35,531 nucleotides of DNA from Anaerolineae bacterium (GTDB lineage Bacteria > Chloroflexota > Anaerolineae > J102), in contig JALXCB010000177.1 in the NCBI GenBank assembly GCA_026991225.1, forward strand, positions 1 to 35,531, given 5' to 3'. Both the position numbers and the translations under genes were made by a program. The notes under the pieces were generated by a model. It was not told the DNA's origin, did not search any database, and saw only the letters and a list, made by a program, of their open reading frames with translations. Shown piece by piece: positions 5,547-34,425 of this stretch (the stretch's first letter is position 1; each line of letters opens with the position of its first letter).

Positions 5547-7277
5547 ATGACCTCGCCGCGAGACCGCATTCGACACTGGCTGCGCGCCATCTACACGGAA
5601 TCCCAGGCCCGATGGCTGGAAGAGGCCATTGCCGGACGCATCGCAGCCTTTCGAGCCCACCATCCCGAAAAGATCGTCAGTCATCCCCTGGATGACATTC
5701 TGACCGAGCGGGACGCCATCCTGATCACCTACGGCGATCAATTTCAGACGCCCGGCCAGCCCCATCTGCACTCCCTGGCCCGTTTCCTTGACGCCCATCT
5801 CCGTGATGTGCTGGACGGCGTTCATATCCTGCCTTTCTTCCCCTACTCCTCGGACGATGGCTTCTCGGTCATTGACTACAAGCGGGTGGCCCCGGCCCTG
5901 GGCGATTGGGAGGATATCGCCCGGTTGGAGCGGCGCTATCGGCTCATGTTCGACGCGGTGATCAATCACATTTCGCGAGAAAGCGCCTGGTTTCAGGGGT
6001 TTGTGCGGGGCGAGGAACCCTATCGAGATTATTTCATTGTCGTGGACCCCAACGTCGACCTCTCTCAGGTAGTGCGGCCGCGGGCGCTGCCCCTGCTCAC
6101 GCCCGTGGAGACTGTCGAGGGCGTGAAATATGTGTGGACGACCTTCAGCGCGGACCAAATCGACCTGAATTACGCCAACCCGCGGGTGGCGCTGGAGATC
6201 ATCGACGTTCTGCTCTTTTATATCGAAAAAGGCGCGCAGATCATTCGTCTGGACGCCATCGCCTATCTGTGGAAAGCGATCGGCACGCCCTGCATCCACT
6301 TGCCTCAGACCCACGCCATGGTGAAGCTGTGGCGGGCCATCTTCGACGCCACCGCGCCCGACGTCCTCATCATCACCGAAACGAACGTGCCCCACGCGGA
6401 GAACGTCAGCTATTTCGGGGACTATTTGCCCGAGATGGGCAGAACCGATGAGGCGCAACTGGTCTATAACTTCACCCTGGCTCCGCTGACCCTGCATGCA
6501 TTTCAATCGGCGAACGCAACCAAGCTTTCGCAATGGGCCGCGGGCCTGGAAGCGCCGCCGGGCGCCACCTTCTTCAACTTCATCGCCTCGCATGATGGCA
6601 TTGGCGTGCGCCCGGCCGAGGGCATCCTCACCGACGCGGACATGCAGGCGTTGGTGGACCGCACGTTGGCTCATGGCGGGCAGGTGGGCTATAAGGCGAA
6701 TCCCGACGGCAGCAAGAGCGTCTATGAGCTGAACATCACCCTGTATGATTTTCTGAATCACCCCGATCATTCCGACCAGGCCATGGACGTGGCCCGTTTC
6801 CTGGCGTCCCAGAGCATCCTCCTGGCCCTGGCGGGCGTCCCCGGCATCTACGTGCACAGCCTGTTCGGCTCCCGCAACTGCCACGCCTGTTTCGAGCAAA
6901 CCGGCCGGGCCCGCTCCCTCAATCGGGAGAAGTTCGACCTGGCCGCCATCGAGGCCCTGCTGGCCGACGAGTCCAGCCATCAGCGGCAGGTGTTCGAGGG
7001 GTATCGCCGTATGCTGGCCGTGCGTCGGGCCCACGCGGCCTTTCATCCCTTCGGGCCTCAGACCGTCCTGCACCTGAACCCCGCTATCTTCGCGGTGCGC
7101 CGCGCGTCGCCAATGGACGACGAGCGCATTCTCTGTCTGACCAACGTCAGCGCCCAACCGCAATCGCTGACCCTGCCGCCGGGCCGCTGGCGCGATTTGC
7201 TGAACCCGGGCGATGCGCTTTCGGGCGAGTTCACGCTGCCTGGCTATGGCGTGGCCTGGCTGACTTCAACGACCTAA
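5547..7277 (+). CDS. GH13_18 sugar phosphorylase (glucosylglycerate/sucrose phosphorylase-like)
   Basis: This alpha-amylase-superfamily enzyme uses phosphate to split an alpha-glucoside into glucose-1-phosphate and an acceptor. The TIM-barrel motifs are visible: nucleophile Asp in IIRLDAIAYLWK, acid/base Glu in IITETNVPHAENV and stabilising Asp in FIASHDGIG. NPDGSKSVYELNIT and GIYVHSLFGSRN resemble the glucosylglycerate phosphorylase (YcjM) branch more than classical sucrose phosphorylase, judged from memory. I chose ATG 5547 (MTSPRDRIRHW) because it matches the family N-terminus. ATG 5517 and an earlier in-frame start at 5430 would add low-complexity residues, and the earliest would overlap the previous gene. 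The length of 576 residues is usual for the family. Confidence 0.85.
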   Translation: MTSPRDRIRHWLRAIYTESQARWLEEAIAGRIAAFRAHHPEKIVSHPLDDILTERDAILITYGDQFQTPGQPHLHSLARFLDAHLRDVLDGVHILPFFPYSSDDGFSVIDYKRVAPALGDWEDIARLERRYRLMFDAVINHISRESAWFQGFVRGEEPYRDYFIVVDPNVDLSQVVRPRALPLLTPVETVEGVKYVWTTFSADQIDLNYANPRVALEIIDVLLFYIEKGAQIIRLDAIAYLWKAIGTPCIHLPQTHAMVKLWRAIFDATAPDVLIITETNVPHAENVSYFGDYLPEMGRTDEAQLVYNFTLAPLTLHAFQSANATKLSQWAAGLEAPPGATFFNFIASHDGIGVRPAEGILTDADMQALVDRTLAHGGQVGYKANPDGSKSVYELNITLYDFLNHPDHSDQAMDVARFLASQSILLALAGVPGIYVHSLFGSRNCHACFEQTGRARSLNREKFDLAAIEALLADESSHQRQVFEGYRRMLAVRRAHAAFHPFGPQTVLHLNPAIFAVRRASPMDDERILCLTNVSAQPQSLTLPPGRWRDLLNPGDALSGEFTLPGYGVAWLTSTT

Positions 7278-13162: not shown

Positions 13163-13305
13163 CAGAGGCGGGAAGCTAATCACGTAATGCGTAATGCGTG
13201 ATGCGTAAGGATTTTACGAATCACGGATGACGCATCACGCCCGTTGCAGATTCGCCCAACATGGGCTTCAAATCCCCTTCGCAAACCAACGCAACGCTAT
13301 TTGCG
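13163..13305. repeat. Dispersed palindromic repeat, copy 2 (reverse orientation)
   Basis: It contains the core CACGTAATGCGTAATGCGTG and GATGACGCATCACGCCCGTT and ends in CAACGCAACGCTATTTGCGG. That end is the reverse complement of the TTCCGAAAATAGCGTTG boundary seen in other copies. The end overlaps the last codons of the GT39 gene on the minus strand and supplies its TAG stop. Confidence 0.7.
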
Positions 13306-27650: not shown

Positions 27651-27839
27651 CAAAGGCCCGCCGACACCTAATGAAAACGCTTCGCGGCCAGGGCGGCGCG
27701 GGAAGCCAGTCACGTAATGCGTAATACGTGATGCGTAATGACCTCACGGATTACGGATTACGCATCACGTCCGTAGCAGACTCGCTCAACGTGGGCTTCG
27801 AGTTGCTTTTGCAAACCAACGCAACGCTATTTTCGGAAC
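27651..27839. repeat. Dispersed palindromic repeat, copy 6 (reverse orientation)
   Basis: It is the reverse complement of copy 5 over most of its length, including GCAAAGGCCCGCCGACACC, CACGTAATGCGTAATACGTG and GGATTACGCATCACGTCCG. It ends GCAACGCTATTTTCGGAAC. The last 13 bases lie inside the STAND regulator gene and encode its final residues F-R-K and the TAG stop. Confidence 0.75.
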
Positions 27840-30343
27840 AACTTGCGGGTGATGACGTATTCATCCCATGCGCCCAACGCGTCGAACATGGCGGCGCTGC
27901 GTTCCAAAAGCTCCTTCCCCCAGCCCTGATTTCCCAAACGCAGTTGCAATGCGCCCATGGCCCGCAGAGCCGTTCCCTTGGCGACGCTGTCAGGGAGATC
28001 TTCCGCCAGCATATACGCCTGTCCGGCGTAGTCGGAAGCCTCCTCCAGCCGTTCCATGGCCGTGTACGCCATGGCCAGACCCGCGTATGCGGTGCACAGG
28101 TCTCGAGGTTCTTCGGACAATCGGGCCAGTTCGAGCAAGGCTCGGGCGTGTTCCAGGGCTTGGGCATGTTCACCCAGCGCCAGGTAAAGGTAGATCATGT
28201 TGTGATGGCCGGTTTGAAGCGCAGTCAGTTCACCCACAGGTTCGAGAATAGCCATCGCTTCTTCATACCGCCGTCGCTGTGTTTCCAGATCGCCCTGAAG
28301 CCCGGCCAACAGGCCCAAATTCCCCACTGCCATCCCCAACGTCCGGCGATCTCCTATCGCTTCAAATGCCGTGCTGCTTTCCTCCAGAAGGACTTGGGCT
28401 TCGTCCACGGTTTTGTTGTGGAGTAATGCCGATCCCAAGCTGAATTTCGCTTTGGCGATGTCTACAGGATCGCCGAGTTCTTCGGCGATATCCAGGGCCT
28501 GGCGATGATACGCCACGGCTTGCTCGATGTTCCCTGTTCGCACCGCCACCCAACCCAGTCCACGCAGGGATTTGCCAATGCCCGATTCGTCCTCCACGCG
28601 TTGATACGCCTCCAGAGCAAATTGATAATGCGTGCGGGCCTGTGGCAGATCCCGCATGTGTTCATAAGTAAGCGCCAGTTCGAAAGTGATATCGGCTTTC
28701 CATATCAGGGGGAAATCCTCTTGCTGGAGCAAGGCGTCGAAGAGCGCGATGGCGTCGCGATAACGTCCTCGAAAGCGGAGAAGCGCGCCCTGGATCTTCA
28801 TCAAGCGCAGGTGGGCTTCGGGGGAGAGTGTCGGTTGGGGCGATTGTTGGAAGGCTTCGACGAGTTTTCCCAGCCATTGGGCTTTGCCCTGTCCCAGATA
28901 CACCCCTGGCTGTTCGGGCAGCCAGGCGATGGCCTGCTCCAGATCCCCGGCCTGCGCGTAATAATAGGCGGCGGGCAAGGCTTGATGCTGCCTGGCGAAA
29001 TGGCGGGCGATTTGGAGGAAGAGATGCTGTCGCTCTCGGGCGCTCATCAACTCCACGAAAAACGCCCGCACCGCCTGATGCATCCCAAACCGTTTTCCTT
29101 GAGGCGTATCCCGAAAATGCAACAGGTTTTTCTCCTGCAACGCAAGCAGGATCGAAAGCTGCGATCCTGCTTGCATGACGCCTTCGACGGTCTCTCGGGA
29201 CGCGATCTCCTCATCCAACAGGGCGATGACGCGCAGGGTCTCACGCTCCTCTTCGCTCAAACCCTGATACACTTCGAACAAAAGATAGCGGATGATGGAC
29301 TCGCTGGACCAAAGGTTATCCAGCGCCGAGATATCCCGTCCCTGTTTCAACACGGCAATGGCCAGCAAGAGCAATTGCGGGTTCCCCTGGGCGGTGCGGT
29401 ACAGACGTTCGGACTCTGAGGGAGCCAGGGAAATGCCATGCTGCGCGACCAGTTGGGCGGCGGCATGTGGATCCAGGCCAGAAAGCGTCATGATGTCGAA
29501 TACAGGGAGATATTTGGGGAAATGACGGGAGATGAGGATGAGTTTGAGCGCATCGCCCCCAGAACGGAGGATGGGCTCAATCAGGCGAATGTGAAATGCC
29601 TCCTGGTCAACGAGGTGATAGTCATCGAAGCACAGAATCACCTGTTCCCGGCTCAGGCGCTCCAATAGCGCACCGAGCAAGATGTTTTCGGGAGGATGTT
29701 GGGGATTCTGGAGGATGCGCCAGATGGTGGGATCGCCCAGATGGGCCAGGAAGGCGGCCAGGCGCCAGAGCACGGTCTCGGGGGTTTCATCCGGGCGAAG
29801 CGTGTGCCAGAAGACGCGCCAGCCTGCGAAAGGGGGCGTGGAAACCAGATGGGCGGCGAAGGTGCTCTTGCCCTGGCCCGCCATGCCGGTGAGCACGAGA
29901 TAGTGCTGGGTTTGTAACAACGCCCGAGCACGGGCCAGTTCCGACGACCGACCCACGAAATGGGTGGGGATGGGAGCAGTCTCCAGAGGAGGCGGAGGGA
30001 TGATTGTGGGTTCCGATGCGGGGGACGCTTCCTTGGGGAAATGCGCCTCCAGGAAGGCTTCGGCGTCTGGACATTCCAGGAGGTCCAGGAAATCCTGGAA
30101 CCACGCCCGGTCGAAGTGCTCCCGTTGAAAGGAGGTCAGTTCCCACAGCGCCTCGGCCAGCGCTGCCGCGTCTTCGTCCGATGCAGGAAGCCGTCGGCCA
30201 TAACGCCAGTTGTTCAGGGTGTGGGGAGAGATGTAAAGGGTTTCGGCCAGCTTCAAACACACGCCCGACATGGTCATGCGTCGGTGGTGGGCGATGAGCT
30301 TGATGGCTTCGTTGAGCTTGCGGCCGACTCGTTGTGCTCTCAT
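27827..30343 (-). CDS. STAND NTPase transcriptional regulator with TPR repeats
   Basis: An 838-residue protein from ATG 30343. Residues 1-~60 hold a helix-turn-helix-like segment (KLAETLYISPHTLNNWRYGRRLP). An NB-ARC/STAND ATPase follows, with Walker A GMAGQGKST near 153-161, Walker B VILCFDDYH and a conserved GNPQLLLLAI sensor-like motif. From about residue 480 to the end there are 9-10 tetratricopeptide repeats (for example RTGNIEQAVAYHRQALDIA). Such MalT/AfsR-type switches are opened by a ligand and ATP and then activate nearby genes. It diverges from the peptide/radical SAM locus, so it is the likely regulator. A TTG at 30370 could add nine residues. The final LFRK and TAG come from a dispersed repeat. 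Confidence 0.85.
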   Translation of the reverse strand: MRAQRVGRKLNEAIKLIAHHRRMTMSGVCLKLAETLYISPHTLNNWRYGRRLPASDEDAAALAEALWELTSFQREHFDRAWFQDFLDLLECPDAEAFLEAHFPKEASPASEPTIIPPPPLETAPIPTHFVGRSSELARARALLQTQHYLVLTGMAGQGKSTFAAHLVSTPPFAGWRVFWHTLRPDETPETVLWRLAAFLAHLGDPTIWRILQNPQHPPENILLGALLERLSREQVILCFDDYHLVDQEAFHIRLIEPILRSGGDALKLILISRHFPKYLPVFDIMTLSGLDPHAAAQLVAQHGISLAPSESERLYRTAQGNPQLLLLAIAVLKQGRDISALDNLWSSESIIRYLLFEVYQGLSEEERETLRVIALLDEEIASRETVEGVMQAGSQLSILLALQEKNLLHFRDTPQGKRFGMHQAVRAFFVELMSARERQHLFLQIARHFARQHQALPAAYYYAQAGDLEQAIAWLPEQPGVYLGQGKAQWLGKLVEAFQQSPQPTLSPEAHLRLMKIQGALLRFRGRYRDAIALFDALLQQEDFPLIWKADITFELALTYEHMRDLPQARTHYQFALEAYQRVEDESGIGKSLRGLGWVAVRTGNIEQAVAYHRQALDIAEELGDPVDIAKAKFSLGSALLHNKTVDEAQVLLEESSTAFEAIGDRRTLGMAVGNLGLLAGLQGDLETQRRRYEEAMAILEPVGELTALQTGHHNMIYLYLALGEHAQALEHARALLELARLSEEPRDLCTAYAGLAMAYTAMERLEEASDYAGQAYMLAEDLPDSVAKGTALRAMGALQLRLGNQGWGKELLERSAAMFDALGAWDEYVITRKLFRK

Positions 30344-30364
30344 GGATAGTTTATCCCAAAGTCT

Positions 30365-30430
30365 GGACAAAAATTTGTCCGGATTGGTCAGCAGATGAAT
30401 GATTTTTTGTCCGCGGGATGGAATTATAAT
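30365..30430 (+). promoter_or_regulatory. Divergent control region: palindrome, direct repeats and -10 box
   Basis: The palindrome GGACAAAAATTTGTCC (30365-30380, 7-bp arms) is followed by a second TTTGTCCG at 30406-30413. The two TTTGTCC boxes are 32 bp apart, three helical turns, on the same strand. TATAAT lies at 30425-30430 on the plus strand with no recognisable -35 box, which suits an activator-dependent promoter for the peptide locus. The palindrome is also 22 bp from the regulator's ATG, allowing autoregulation. Binding by the STAND regulator is inference. Confidence 0.55.
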
Positions 30431-30520
30431 ACCACCAAGCTAAGGCAAGCCCAACAACCTCCGTCTCACTCATGTTTTCAATCCCTCTTTTTCCACTCCA
30501 TTCGCAAAGGAAAGAAGAAA

Positions 30521-30724
30521 ATGAATGCCAAACGCCAAACGAAACCTTCGATTCGTCTTGTCATGTGGATGCTGGCCATTCTGTTCGTGGCGGGCATGGC
30601 GCTTTCCGCGGGCGTCACCACCCTGCAACGACATTCTCTCCAGATGAGGAGTCGACAGCCATCTCAGGCTATCACCGATTGCAGCGGCGTTTGCCCTGAC
30701 GATACCTGGGGAGATAACGGTTGA
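30521..30724 (+). CDS. 67-residue secreted or membrane-anchored Cys-X3-Cys peptide (possible RiPP precursor)
   Basis: The ORF starts MNAKRQTKPSIRLVMW after an AAAGGAAAG ribosome site. Residues ~12-31 are a hydrophobic helix (signal anchor or signal peptide) preceded by Lys/Arg. The exported tail ends AITDCSGVCPDDTWGDNG. The CSGVC spacing matches the CGAGC of the 22-residue ORF further down the locus. It could be a second substrate of the radical SAM enzyme, or an accessory small membrane protein. Without the 227-bp insertion its stop codon would lie about 50 bp before the maturase start, which supports an original operon. I recognise no family. Confidence 0.6.
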   Translation: MNAKRQTKPSIRLVMWMLAILFVAGMALSAGVTTLQRHSLQMRSRQPSQAITDCSGVCPDDTWGDNG

Positions 30725-30745
30725 CGCTCGAGATAACGTTCCACG

Positions 30746-30972
30746 CTGGTTGACTGACAAATCTTGCTGTCTGCATTTCCGCCCGCTTTTACCGAGTAAA
30801 CTCGGACTCTTTAGGCGCTTCGCGCCCGGGGTCGACCTTCGTCGACCTGATTTCCAGCATGAAAATGGACGGCGGAGGCCGTCCACTGGCCGCAGGCCTG
30901 CCATGGTGCGACTTCAGTCGACAAAATATGAGCGACTAAAGCAGGCCTCAACGCGTTTTGTCAGTCAATCAG
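30746..30972. mobile_element. 227-bp multi-hairpin insertion with 9-bp target duplication
   Basis: The ends are CTGGTTGACTGACAAA and the complement of CTGATTGACTGACAAA. Both sides carry the 9-bp direct repeat CGTTCCACG (30737-30745 and 30973-30981). The interior is a chain of hairpins: CCGAGT/ACTCGG, GGCGC/GCGCC (30814-30826), GGTCGAC/GTCGACC (30830-30847), GGACGGC/GCCGTCC (30867-30884) and CGACT/AGTCG (30909-30920). There is no transposase gene. It separates the small peptide gene from the maturase, ending 28 bp before the maturase ATG. The family is not identified. Confidence 0.78.
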
Positions 30973-31000
30973 CGTTCCACGTTTTAAGAGGAGTGACGAC

Positions 31001-32302
31001 ATGGCGTACTTACTTTCTCGATATGCCCGAATTTTCGAAAAGAATGGACATTGGTGGCTGTTCCATTCGCCTACGGGCATCGCTGCACAATTCACCGACG
31101 ATTTCATCGAGACGCCCGAGTTCGCGCAACTTCGCTCGCAACGAGCCGTGGAGGAGAGCGATCACGAGGTGGTCGACACCATGCGTCAGTATGGCATCCT
31201 CGTTGATGAGGCCACTTATGCTCATGAACCTATCCAGTTAGCCCAAACATTACAGGAGCACATTCGTAGGGAAGACCGATTTGAGCTCATCATTTTGCCT
31301 ACAGAGAAATGCAATTTCCGCTGTCCTTATTGTTATGAAGATTTTAGACAAGGTAGAATGTCTCGGCAGGTCGTAGAAAGCGTCAAACGTCTCATTTCCC
31401 GCAAGGCGGCCAACGAAGCAATTCGCCACATTCATCTCGGGTGGTTCGGAGGAGAACCGCTGATAGCCAGAGATATTGTTTTTGAAATCACGGAACACGC
31501 TTTGAATGAAGCACATAAGCATTCGGCAACCTTTGCAGGCGATATCACGACCAATGGCTATTATTTGAATGAGGCAATTTTCTCAAAATTGATGGAATTG
31601 CAGATCAAAATCTATCAAGTCACCTTGGATGGACCGCCTGAAGTGCATAACCGATCGCGTGTACTATTCAATGGGGGCGGCACGTTCGACCGCATTTGGA
31701 TGAATCTTGAAGCCATGCACAGGTCCGAAGCGGATTTTGACCTCCTGTTGCGAATGAATGTTCATGACGGAAACTTTGAAGCAATCAAGCAATGGATTCC
31801 GGCTTTGGGTCAAACATTCTTGCGGGAGGAAAAACGGTTTCACGTGCACTTTCATGCTGTTTTTACGAAAGACCTCCATAGTAAAGTGCGCTCAAGGAAA
31901 ATGGATCGAATCCGGGAATTGTATCAACTGGCGCTTACCCACCATCTTTCCGTAGACTTGCAACGGCTTTTTGTCCCTTTTGGCTCGGTTTGTTACGCAT
32001 CCAAAGCACATAACTTTGTCATTCGAAGCAATGGTGACATCAACAAATGCACTGTCGCTTTTGGCATCCCTCAGAATCGAGTAGGGAAACTGACATCGGA
32101 TGGCGAATTGGAATTGAATGACAATTATCGATTGTGGGTGCGGGAGACGCTCTCACATCCATCATGTAGTTCTTGTTCGTTTGTTTACCAATGTGGCGGA
32201 TACGCCTCGTGTCCGTTACAACCCATCTTACGTGGAGAAAACAAACGCTATTGTGGCATCTATCGAGATACTGAAAACTTACTTCCCCTGCTTGCTCTCT
32301 GA
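31001..32302 (+). CDS. Radical SAM/SPASM peptide maturase
   Basis: A 433-residue enzyme. Residues 1-~95 are a leader-binding-type N-terminal region (FHSPTGIAAQF). The radical SAM cluster motif is EKCNFRCPYCYEDFRQGRM with Cys104, Cys108 and Cys111, followed by HLGWFGGEPL and ITTNGYYL. The C-terminal SPASM domain that binds auxiliary iron-sulfur clusters has VCYASKAHNFVIRSNG-DINKC (CX13GX4C), then CX2CX5CX5C at 389-404 and a last Cys near 418. The phrase NFRCPYCYEDF is typical of enzymes that crosslink Cys-rich ribosomal peptides. AAGAGGAG precedes the ATG. GC is about 40-45% in its middle, below the neighbouring genes, suggesting transfer. Confidence 0.9.
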   Translation: MAYLLSRYARIFEKNGHWWLFHSPTGIAAQFTDDFIETPEFAQLRSQRAVEESDHEVVDTMRQYGILVDEATYAHEPIQLAQTLQEHIRREDRFELIILPTEKCNFRCPYCYEDFRQGRMSRQVVESVKRLISRKAANEAIRHIHLGWFGGEPLIARDIVFEITEHALNEAHKHSATFAGDITTNGYYLNEAIFSKLMELQIKIYQVTLDGPPEVHNRSRVLFNGGGTFDRIWMNLEAMHRSEADFDLLLRMNVHDGNFEAIKQWIPALGQTFLREEKRFHVHFHAVFTKDLHSKVRSRKMDRIRELYQLALTHHLSVDLQRLFVPFGSVCYASKAHNFVIRSNGDINKCTVAFGIPQNRVGKLTSDGELELNDNYRLWVRETLSHPSCSSCSFVYQCGGYASCPLQPILRGENKRYCGIYRDTENLLPLLAL

Positions 32303-32312
32303 TTGTTGACTA

Positions 32313-32341
32313 CAGGATTTAGTTTGCCGGCAAAAATCCTG
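32313..32341 (+). promoter_or_regulatory. Hairpin between maturase and 22-residue ORF
   Basis: CAGGATT (32313-32319) pairs with AATCCTG (32335-32341), and the inner TTTGCC pairs with GGCAAA (32323-32334), with a TAG bulge. It starts 11 bp after the maturase stop. There is no T-run, so it may be an mRNA-processing or protective stem rather than a strict terminator. Confidence 0.5.
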
Positions 32342-32398
32342 AGTTCTCTTATCTTAAACCGTTCAACACTCACAATACTTTTCAAGGAGGCTAGAAAC

Positions 32399-32467
32399 AT
32401 GAAGGTTCTCACTTCGGTCACACCCAATGCCTGGATCAAAAACGGTATCTGCGGCGCGGGATGCTAG
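32399..32467 (+). CDS. 22-residue Cys-X3-Cys peptide, candidate RiPP precursor
   Basis: The tiny ORF starts MKVLTSVTP and ends NGICGAGC, then TAG. Cys18 and Cys22 are its only cysteines, and a Trp stands at residue 12. AAGGAGG at 32384-32390 with 8-base spacing is an ideal Shine-Dalgarno, the best in the window, which strongly suggests real translation. It lies between a radical SAM/SPASM enzyme and an ABC exporter, with hairpins on both sides, the usual place of a precursor peptide. The short Cys-rich form faintly recalls clostridial radical SAM-modified peptides (Clo7bot-type), from memory only. An attenuation leader peptide is the main alternative. Confidence 0.68.
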   Translation: MKVLTSVTPNAWIKNGICGAGC

Positions 32468-32510
32468 TTGTCTCAAATCGAGATTCACCAACTTTCAATC
32501 AATCTCCGAA

Positions 32511-32537
32511 TGTGAGAGGGAGACTCTCCCTCTCACA
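32511..32537 (+). terminator. Strong hairpin between the 22-residue ORF and the exporter genes
   Basis: TGTGAGAGGGAG (32511-32522) and CTCCCTCTCACA (32526-32537) form a perfect 12-bp stem with loop ACT. No T-run follows, so partial termination or stabilisation of the upstream precursor mRNA is more likely than full termination. This arrangement gives more precursor than exporter. Confidence 0.65.
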
Positions 32538-32558
32538 TGATTCCTTGAGAGGTGGCGT

Positions 32559-33305
32559 ATGCGTTCGCTCAAAACAATTTCATTCTCCGGTTTTCTCTAC
32601 TTTTATTATTCTATTATTGCCATGGTGCGCCAGGCGCAATATGGAATTCAAATCCTTTTTCTCCCCGCCCTCGGCCTCTCCATCTTCCTGGCTGTGTTTG
32701 CGGCAACGAAAATGGTTCATGGCAACACTCAGACCTTGTTCTTCCCCTTCCTGGTCTATAATTTCATTAACTTTCCCCTTGGCGCTGTGATGCAAGGGTC
32801 GTTTCATATGTTTACAAACCCTTCGCGTTCCAATGTCTATCTGGCAACGCCCACATCCCTCAATGCTCTGCTAGGGATATTTTTAGGTGACTCATGGACG
32901 ATGCTGATCGGTAATTTGATGGGAGTCTTGGTCGCAGCTATAATTGTGCGCCCTGTCATTTTTCCTCTTCCCGCCATATTGGCCATGGCGTTGTTATTGC
33001 TGTTTCTTGTTCCAAGTGTGTGGCTGGGCATGGCCATGGGCATGAGGTTGCTTTTTGCACATCAGCTTTCCCAATTTGTTTTTCTGGGATTGTTTGTCAT
33101 CATAGCTTTACCCACCAGTTTGCCATGGCTGTGGGTGATTGCGCCTTTTACTGCAGTTCTTTATCTTTTCAATCAAAGTCAAATTGCCTGGCAGCCTTTC
33201 TGGTTAGGGCTGGCAGGCACTGCTTTCTGGTGGATACTTTCCAAATTCTTTCTCTCTCTGGCATATAAACAGTATCGACTTGGTTTGGGAGTAGACAGAC
33301 GATGA
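32559..33305 (+). CDS. ABC-2-type permease of the peptide locus
   Basis: The 248-residue protein has six predicted membrane segments, including FGIQILFLPALGLSIFLAVF-like (as YGIQILFLPALG), FPLPAILAMALLLLFLVP and FVFLGLFVIIALPTSLPWLW. GAGAGGTGG precedes the ATG. The stop overlaps the start of the ATPase gene by four bases (ATGA), so translation is coupled. With the ATPase it should form an exporter or immunity transporter for the modified peptide, which is inference from position. No protease domain is present, so leader removal, if any, must occur elsewhere. Confidence 0.8.
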   Translation: MRSLKTISFSGFLYFYYSIIAMVRQAQYGIQILFLPALGLSIFLAVFAATKMVHGNTQTLFFPFLVYNFINFPLGAVMQGSFHMFTNPSRSNVYLATPTSLNALLGIFLGDSWTMLIGNLMGVLVAAIIVRPVIFPLPAILAMALLLLFLVPSVWLGMAMGMRLLFAHQLSQFVFLGLFVIIALPTSLPWLWVIAPFTAVLYLFNQSQIAWQPFWLGLAGTAFWWILSKFFLSLAYKQYRLGLGVDRR

Positions 33306-34213
33306 CACAGCCTATTATTCTTGCCAACGACATTCGAAAAACATATCCTACCAAACCGCCCGTCACGGCGCTGGCTGGATTGTCCCTATCTGTTTTTCCT
33401 GGAGAGACACTGGCGTTGCTCGGTCCAAATGGCGCTGGCAAAACGACTTTTATCCGCATTCTTTTAGGCATTCTGTTGCCGGACAGCGGACACATTCAAG
33501 TGGGTGGTCAGGATCCCATTCAATCTCCTCAAAAAGTTGCCGATCAGATACGGTTTGTCCCAGAGCAGCCTTTTTTGGAGACGAGTTGGACGCTTTGGCA
33601 AAACGCTCGTTTTTGGTTCAGCCTATGGCAAGAGCCCTGGGATAAAAAACGCGTCACCGATATTTTGAGGCGATTTGATCTCGTTCATCGAGCCGATGAA
33701 CCCCTCACCCGCTACTCGCGGGGCATGCAGCAACGGGCCGGGCTGGCTTTGGCCCTGGCCACCCACGCTCCCATCATCGTGCTGGACGAACCCACCCTGG
33801 GCCTGGACGTGCTGGGCGTGCAGGAAACCATCGACGTGTTGCAGGAAGCGAAGCAGTTGGGTAAGACCATCCTTTTCGCTTCCCACGACATGTCTTTCGT
33901 GGAAAGCATTGCAGATCGCATTGCGCTGGTCGCCCACGGCCGGGTGCTGGAAGTGAATGAAACCCAGGCCTTCCGCAAAAAGCACGGGAAGGAATACGTG
34001 GTGCTGCGCTATCGGCCTCATGGCAGTGAAGAGCTCGTCACCCAGCGGATTCGGGCCAACGGGCATTTCTCCGAAGAGCAGTTATGGCGCGAGGTGATCG
34101 ATCGCGGGGATTCATTGGTGGAGCTGAAGCGCGAACTGCAACCCCTTTCCATGGTCATCCAGGAATATCTTCAACATTTGCCTGAGCTCGAAGAAAGGAG
34201 CGAATTGTCATGA
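33302..34213 (+). CDS. ABC transporter ATP-binding protein of the peptide locus
   Basis: The 303-residue ATPase has Walker A GPNGAGKTTF (near residues 41-50), signature YSRGMQQRAGLALAL near 138-152, Walker B IIVLDEPTLGLD and the switch His in FASHDMSF. A C-terminal extension of about 90 residues follows the ATPase core, as in DrrA/CcmA-type exporters. It pairs with the membrane protein encoded just upstream. Base composition changes inside the gene: by hand count 32 of 60 bases are G/C at 33661-33720 but 42 of 60 at 33721-33780. The 3' half may derive from a resident gene by recombination. Confidence 0.9.
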   Translation: MTQPIILANDIRKTYPTKPPVTALAGLSLSVFPGETLALLGPNGAGKTTFIRILLGILLPDSGHIQVGGQDPIQSPQKVADQIRFVPEQPFLETSWTLWQNARFWFSLWQEPWDKKRVTDILRRFDLVHRADEPLTRYSRGMQQRAGLALALATHAPIIVLDEPTLGLDVLGVQETIDVLQEAKQLGKTILFASHDMSFVESIADRIALVAHGRVLEVNETQAFRKKHGKEYVVLRYRPHGSEELVTQRIRANGHFSEEQLWREVIDRGDSLVELKRELQPLSMVIQEYLQHLPELEERSELS

Positions 34214-34425
34214 GCATCAAACCGTCGCGTTTCTTTGGACGTATGGTGCATTTTTACTTTGCCCATGGCGTCGATCCGACGATTCTGCCGTTAAGGAACG
34301 CGCGAGAACCCTATCGGATTGCCATGCCATCTCATCCCCAGGTGGAAATGTTGCCAAAATCTCCCCGCAATCTCGATGGGAATGTATCGAGTTCGAAAAC
34401 CACAGAGGCGCGGGGGAATCGGTAA
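34210..34425 (+). CDS. 71-residue ORF coupled to the ATPase, possible gene remnant
   Basis: The ATG overlaps the ATPase stop (ATGA), and GAAAGGAG lies upstream, so a real gene start is likely. The first ~22 residues (MSIKPSRFFGRMVHFYFAHG) look like the start of a membrane component. After that the sequence is polar, has no domain pattern and reads like non-coding DNA, ending inside a terminator stem. I think a second permease or accessory gene was truncated here by deletion or insertion. It may be only a short chance extension. Confidence 0.4.
   Translation: MSIKPSRFFGRMVHFYFAHGVDPTILPLRNAREPYRIAMPSHPQVEMLPKSPRNLDGNVSSSKTTEARGNR

Follow-up and report, generated by a model that had tools for sequence, protein, structure and literature searches.

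A candidate NxxC-type thioether peptide cassette with a very short precursor in an Anaerolineae genome

The closest described systems to the one reported here are the NxxC radical S-adenosylmethionine (SAM) RiPPs (ribosomally synthesised and post-translationally modified peptides) of streptococci. There, an Asn lies three residues before the donor Cys of a short precursor (NxxcA), and the precursor gene adjoins that of a SPASM-type radical SAM enzyme, which in Streptococcus orisratti (NxxcB) joins the sulfur of Cys23 to the beta-carbon of Asn20 (PMC8326336, PMC13361665). We analysed a stretch of 35,531 nucleotides from an Anaerolineae bacterium (contig JALXCB010000177.1 of assembly GCA_026991225.1), hereafter the window, in which a radical SAM/SPASM maturase gene lies between two small open reading frames (ORFs), peptides A and B, and which shares both of these features. 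Our best call from the combined analysis is an NxxC-type thioether RiPP system with a very short precursor, whose chemistry we infer. The parts of the cassette are as follows.

27827..30370, minus strand: divergent STAND-type NTPase/TPR gene (Pfam TPR_12, 1.2e-28; weak AAA/nSTAND matches)
30521..30724, plus strand: peptide A, 67 aa (same-place homologues in genomes G001 and G005 only)
30744..30974, no strand assigned: insertion of 231 bp like a miniature inverted-repeat transposable element (MITE), with inverted terminal repeats and target duplication TTCCA
31001..32302, plus strand: radical SAM/SPASM peptide maturase, 433 aa (PF04055, 3.9e-15)
32399..32467, plus strand: candidate precursor peptide B, 22 aa (two homologues in G001; NxxC signature of related precursors)
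32512..32536, plus strand: perfect hairpin after B and ahead of the permease gene (RNA fold energy)
32559..33305, plus strand: ABC permease, 248 aa, proposed exporter (homologues in G001 and G005; no Pfam match)
33302..34213, plus strand: ABC transporter ATPase, 303 aa (PF00005, 3.4e-31)

The initial annotation of this DNA had placed the maturase between small ORFs of 67 and 22 residues, with an ABC permease/ATPase pair of coupled starts after it and a divergent STAND/TPR gene, and all of these were recovered; the permease and ATPase genes overlap at ATGA. A, B and the maturase are each preceded by a purine-rich ribosome-binding site. The genomes compared here are drafts. In G001, a genome of the same genus, a STAND regulator (43% identity to the window), a homologue of A, the maturase (55%), two B-like peptides, the permease (60%) and the ATPase (63%) form a collinear block. 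The maturase, permease and ATPase are under strong constraint between genomes. Among 100 sampled genomes of relatives, only G001 and the window's own genome had the maturase at E <= 1e-30, and 400-genome samples of the class and the phylum yielded, beyond the latter, only G001, G213, G356 and G554. Among 396 sampled genomes of the class, the permease and peptide A were confined to the genus. The G+C content is 44-50% over the maturase, B and the permease (31000-33500) versus 54-71% in the flanking sequence, which may point to horizontal acquisition of this stretch.

Peptide B (MKVLTSVTPNAWIKNGICGAGC, with AAGGAGG upstream) carries the motif K-N-G-I-C (N15-G-I-C18), its second Cys being Cys22, and begins with MKVLTS, a start conserved as the MKLLTT type in its G001 homologues B1 (MKLLTTPSVAADKVANVGCVNIICW) and B2 (MKLLTTENVYSDQAGLNIGCINFICWEV). 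Each of the latter has two tandem Asn-x-x-Cys. Purifying selection on the G001 peptides is clear from the codons in which B1 and B2 differ: over the whole length the proportions of changed nonsynonymous (pN) and synonymous (pS) sites are 0.23 and 0.92, the first six codons differ at synonymous sites alone (pN 0, pS 0.92), and the values for the core are pN 0.125 and pS 1.1. Synonymous sites have also changed more between window B and the G001 peptides (pN 0.18-0.22, pS 0.81-0.92), all these figures being rough because the peptides are short. The candidate precursor and two homologues of it, under purifying selection, are thus found beside the maturase in two genomes. We read B as the maturase substrate. 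The initial annotation had staked its proposal on two outcomes, and both were observed: small ORFs stand beside the closest maturase homologue (that of G001), and their codons are under purifying selection (B1 against B2, and the C-terminus of A between the window and G005).

The Asn-x-x-Cys signature was examined in small ORFs with Cys that adjoin related maturase genes on plasmids, on viral contigs and in further genomes. Asn occupies position -3 of 28 of the 52 Cys in these precursors (shuffle mean 6.7; 0/5000), and position -3 or -4 of 41 of them. With values averaged within each locus, 9 of 14 loci have Asn three residues before their first Cys (mean 1.26; 0/20000). In the controls, peptides encoded next to other maturases (Clo7bot, CefA, an Oscillospiraceae pair, L079), Asn is at -3 of 8 of 87 Cys. 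The idea was recorded in advance of reading five more loci. Four of these (Bradyrhizobium, Rhizobium, Streptomyces, Flammeovirga) show Asn at -3 of the first Cys; at the remaining one (Rhizosphaericola, with five peptides), -4 prevails over all Cys. In this later set, -3 and -4 together are enriched (17 of 28 Cys; mean 7.8). A core Cys with Asn three residues ahead of it occurs in window B, in both G001 peptides and in a short peptide of G554, which has a single Asn-x-x-Cys, N-P-G-C. Since the spacing is shared with NxxcB, an Asn15-Cys18 C-beta thioether is our leading prediction for B. Thioether chemistry had already been proposed for this locus from the CX3C spacing of both small peptides; chemistry of the ranthipeptide type is indeed probable, but we rejected CX3C as the defining motif, because, although recurrent (L073, L075, L076, L014, L004/L006), it is not constant among the closest homologues, being CX4C in both B peptides of G001.

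Window B differs from NxxcA in having its second Cys at the very C-terminus, and the sister locus in its tandem NxxC. Precursors of the window family have 22-28 aa, and NxxcA reaches at least residue 23; the shortest precursors are reported to be those of biarylitides (PMC12951456). Unlike the streptococcal systems, the cassette has an ABC pair and peptide A, and its adjacent gene encodes a STAND/TPR protein in place of the Rgg/SHP quorum-sensing pair. A second system to compare is CteB/SCIFF, with which a thioether chemistry would be held in common; SCIFF precursors, however, have six Cys within about 45 residues, against two in each small peptide of the window, and CteB is only 20% identical in sequence to the window maturase.

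The maturase contains the radical SAM motif CX3CX2C (C104, C108, C111) and the complete seven-Cys SPASM set (C331-X13-G-X4-C350...C389, C392, C398, C404, C418), in which CX5C replaces the usual CX2-3C. All ten of its Cys fall in these motifs, and the G001 enzyme keeps the same spacing, except that the distance from one motif to the other differs by two residues. Its best NCBIfam profile matches belong to the same SPASM peptide-maturase superfamily, namely the TIGR04463, Clo7bot, CefB, geopeptide and PapB maturases, but membership of each was rejected on score (183.7, 169.6, 144, 130.9 and 106.1 bits versus cut-offs of 525, 600, 600, 400 and 340, respectively). A literature search found nothing specific on TIGR04463, and the Clo7bot and CefA precursors that were checked have no NxxC signature, unlike the window cassette. 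In a tree of 25 maturases, the window and G001 enzymes pair with support of 100/100, inside a wider group of moderate support (93/87) that includes G554, Deinococcus plasmid enzymes, and the NxxC enzymes of plasmids and viral contigs; Clo7bot and TIGR04463-type enzymes sit apart from it. At least one later NxxC locus, L105, falls outside this group, so the motif does not belong to it exclusively. The predicted fold comes closest to CteB, the nearest solved structure, along nearly the whole enzyme (Foldseek E 4.9e-18; VIA-align Z 22, root-mean-square deviation 4.1-4.7, model residues 6-405), while ChlB and anSMEcpe equal CteB on Z but cover only from about residue 88. Strands followed by helices are predicted for residues 1-63, which the CteB alignment enters at residue 6 and where pLDDT is 44-68.

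It is very probable that this cluster makes a tiny cross-linked peptide, and we consider it fairly likely that B is the precursor, that the maturase links Asn15 to Cys18 and that A is accessory. The N-terminus of B, MK[LV]LT[ST], would be held by the N-terminal domain of the maturase, and the enzyme would join the sulfur of Cys18 to Asn15 of N-G-I-C, most likely at the beta-carbon, as NxxcB does. A protease, absent from the cassette itself, would then free a short C-terminal core (about NGICGAGC), which the ABC pair is proposed to export. The STAND/TPR protein, whose N-terminal domain is typical of DNA-binding regulators, may control expression. The hairpin region after B (-27 kcal/mol, z -3.9) has a counterpart at the same place in G001, where a strong hairpin makes a weaker case (z -2.05); it is a possible attenuator or processing site, and would suit a higher output of precursor than of exporter.

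Several observations weigh against this interpretation. Intact loci number only two, those of the window and G001. The likeness to the NxxcA/NxxcB system that was examined is one of precursor motif and gene context. The N-terminal and SPASM parts of the maturase model have low confidence scores, so that a RiPP recognition element in the N-terminus is no more than suggested by it. Adjacency and Cys content guided the choice of precursors beside distant maturases, a count per Cys in the later set shows no enrichment of -3 by itself (5 versus a mean of 4.3), Cys22 of window B has no Asn at -3, and the precursors of L019, L071 and L072 use -4 or have no such motif. Finally, there is no protease gene in the cassette.

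Peptide A has a hydrophobic N-terminal signal/anchor segment and ends in DCSGVCPDDTWGDNG. The hydrophobic part evolves fast and the C-terminus, DCxxxCPDDTWG, is constrained (window versus G005: nonsynonymous divergence dN 0.21, synonymous divergence dS 1.16, both rough for so short a sequence). Its spacing is CX3C in the window and CX5C in G001, and Asn-x-x-Cys is absent from A in all three genomes checked. A persists in G005, the third genome of the genus, in which the regulator (69% identity to the window), the permease (68%) and the ATPase are also intact, but B is gone and only a small part of the maturase is left. The maturase frame of G005 follows its family for about 57 codons and then departs from it (L093 4306-5466, G005:C114), at a GAGGTGG junction, a string that occurs in the window both within the maturase and at the ribosome site of the permease. 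The loss may be genuine, or it may stem from faulty assembly of this draft genome; as a sister that keeps the regulator, A and the ABC genes, G005 is a possible natural non-producer. In G004, the permease gene and the end of a STAND gene lie at contig ends, so the locus is unreadable there. The hydrophobic N-terminus, the missing motif, the variable front and fixed end, and the survival in G005 together lead us to regard A as probably accessory; in our reading of the sequences it is not the main substrate of the maturase. It would be exported or membrane-anchored, and self-protection together with the ABC pair is our preferred guess. The proposal of a RiPP locus in the initial annotation thus holds in that maturase, short precursor, exporter and regulator are kept as a block, but not in the equal weight given to both peptides, as B has a substrate signature and A has none.

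The maturase might nevertheless cross-link the C-X3-C region of A as well, yielding a two-peptide product; thuricin CD is two-component. A lies directly before the maturase gene (about 40 bp without the MITE; 37 bp in G005), and its DCxxxCP end resembles that of the L014 precursor, VEDCNVYCPKPS, which makes A conceivable as a second substrate. We think this rather improbable given the absence of Asn-x-x-Cys in three genomes, the signal/anchor segment in place of a leader, the shift to CX5C in G001, and the fact that no A was found beside G554 or the plasmid relatives. One might also speculate, tentatively, that this is a two-peptide system of another sort: a leader-poor NxxC(xNxxC) thioether peptide of 22-28 aa with its own ABC pair, plus a secreted or anchored A whose C-X3-5-C...DTWG end would be an extracellular co-effector, receptor or antidote, the STAND/TPR protein being a sensor switch. 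We are not aware of a described RiPP class in which these features come together. It is also possible, if unlikely, that the two Cys of B are modified otherwise, either by C-alpha thioethers of the sactionine type or by a simple C18-C22 disulfide with the enzyme doing something else. The occurrence of CX3C near the C-terminus of several related precursors (L073, L075, L076, L014, L004) and a fold common to sacti- and ranthipeptide enzymes would fit such a modification, but both G001 peptides have CX4C, and what the precursors share more strongly is Asn at -3.

Decay of the cassette, with no product in this strain, would explain the MITE between A and the maturase, as well as the truncated maturase and lost B of G005. 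This element, flanked by its target duplication at 30739-30743 and 30975-30979, has 55 matches in its own genome, with matching target duplications at many other copies. Its insertion is intergenic, every ORF of the window cassette is intact with its ribosome site, and the constraint on the maturase, permease and ATPase noted above is strong, so we regard decay as quite improbable. Least credible is that the small ORFs are there by chance and that the maturase acts on something encoded elsewhere: the window has 343 ORFs of 20-80 aa, 11 with CX3C, but A and B are conserved in position, ribosome sites and sequence and are under purifying selection, and the comparison of B1 with B2 brings this explanation close to refuted.

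The cassette has uncharacterised relatives on plasmids, viral contigs and chromosomes. The maturases of L013-L019, L073-L076 and G554, many of which carry PTE[KQ]CNFRC and are about 35-42% identical to the window enzyme, have precursors with Asn-x-x-Cys cores in common with window B; these are mostly of 55-100 aa, many with a GKVVI..PE-like leader, in contrast to the 22-28 aa of the window family. The G554 precursor (30 aa) is like the window's in shortness, and the L013 and L014 maturases have a reduced SPASM region. At the G554 locus (L077 4971-8745, G554:C105), the maturase relative and the precursor, which ends in GCNFATGC, are accompanied by a PF02441 flavoprotein of the cysteine-decarboxylase type and an MFS transporter; decarboxylation of the C-terminal Cys in addition to NxxC thioether chemistry is conceivable there. 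The viral contig L015 encodes precursors with repeated Asn-x-x-Cys (6096-6377, 6697-6930), the first having Asn at -3 for all five Cys (VNAGC, SNGSC, GNSGC, TNGGC, ANAGC). On another viral contig, L014 (4941-6138), a compact maturase and its 58-aa precursor adjoin phage-like structural genes, and such cassettes may thus be phage-borne.

As to the remainder of the window, a small ORF at 34210-34425 has no counterpart of similar length 3' of the G005 ATPase and was left out of the cassette. A role in anti-phage defence was rejected, as the matches were just generic ones of TPR, radical-SAM/viperin and ABC type. An intergenic repeat family (unit ACGTAATGCGTAATGCGTGATGCGTAA) has direct and inverted copies at 13182, 17589, 22755, 25280 and 27712. 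No Rfam match or tRNA was found, and promoter- or terminator-like sites are not in excess.

ORFs as small as B are probably missed by annotation pipelines. Being so short, the 22-residue precursor would be a convenient minimal substrate for studies of leader recognition and radical thioether formation. Asn15-Cys18 is a directly testable site prediction for uncharacterised maturases of plasmids, viral contigs and chromosomes in several phyla. The NxxC thioether chemistry described in streptococci may thus extend far wider, including to precursors with five Asn-x-x-Cys repeats.

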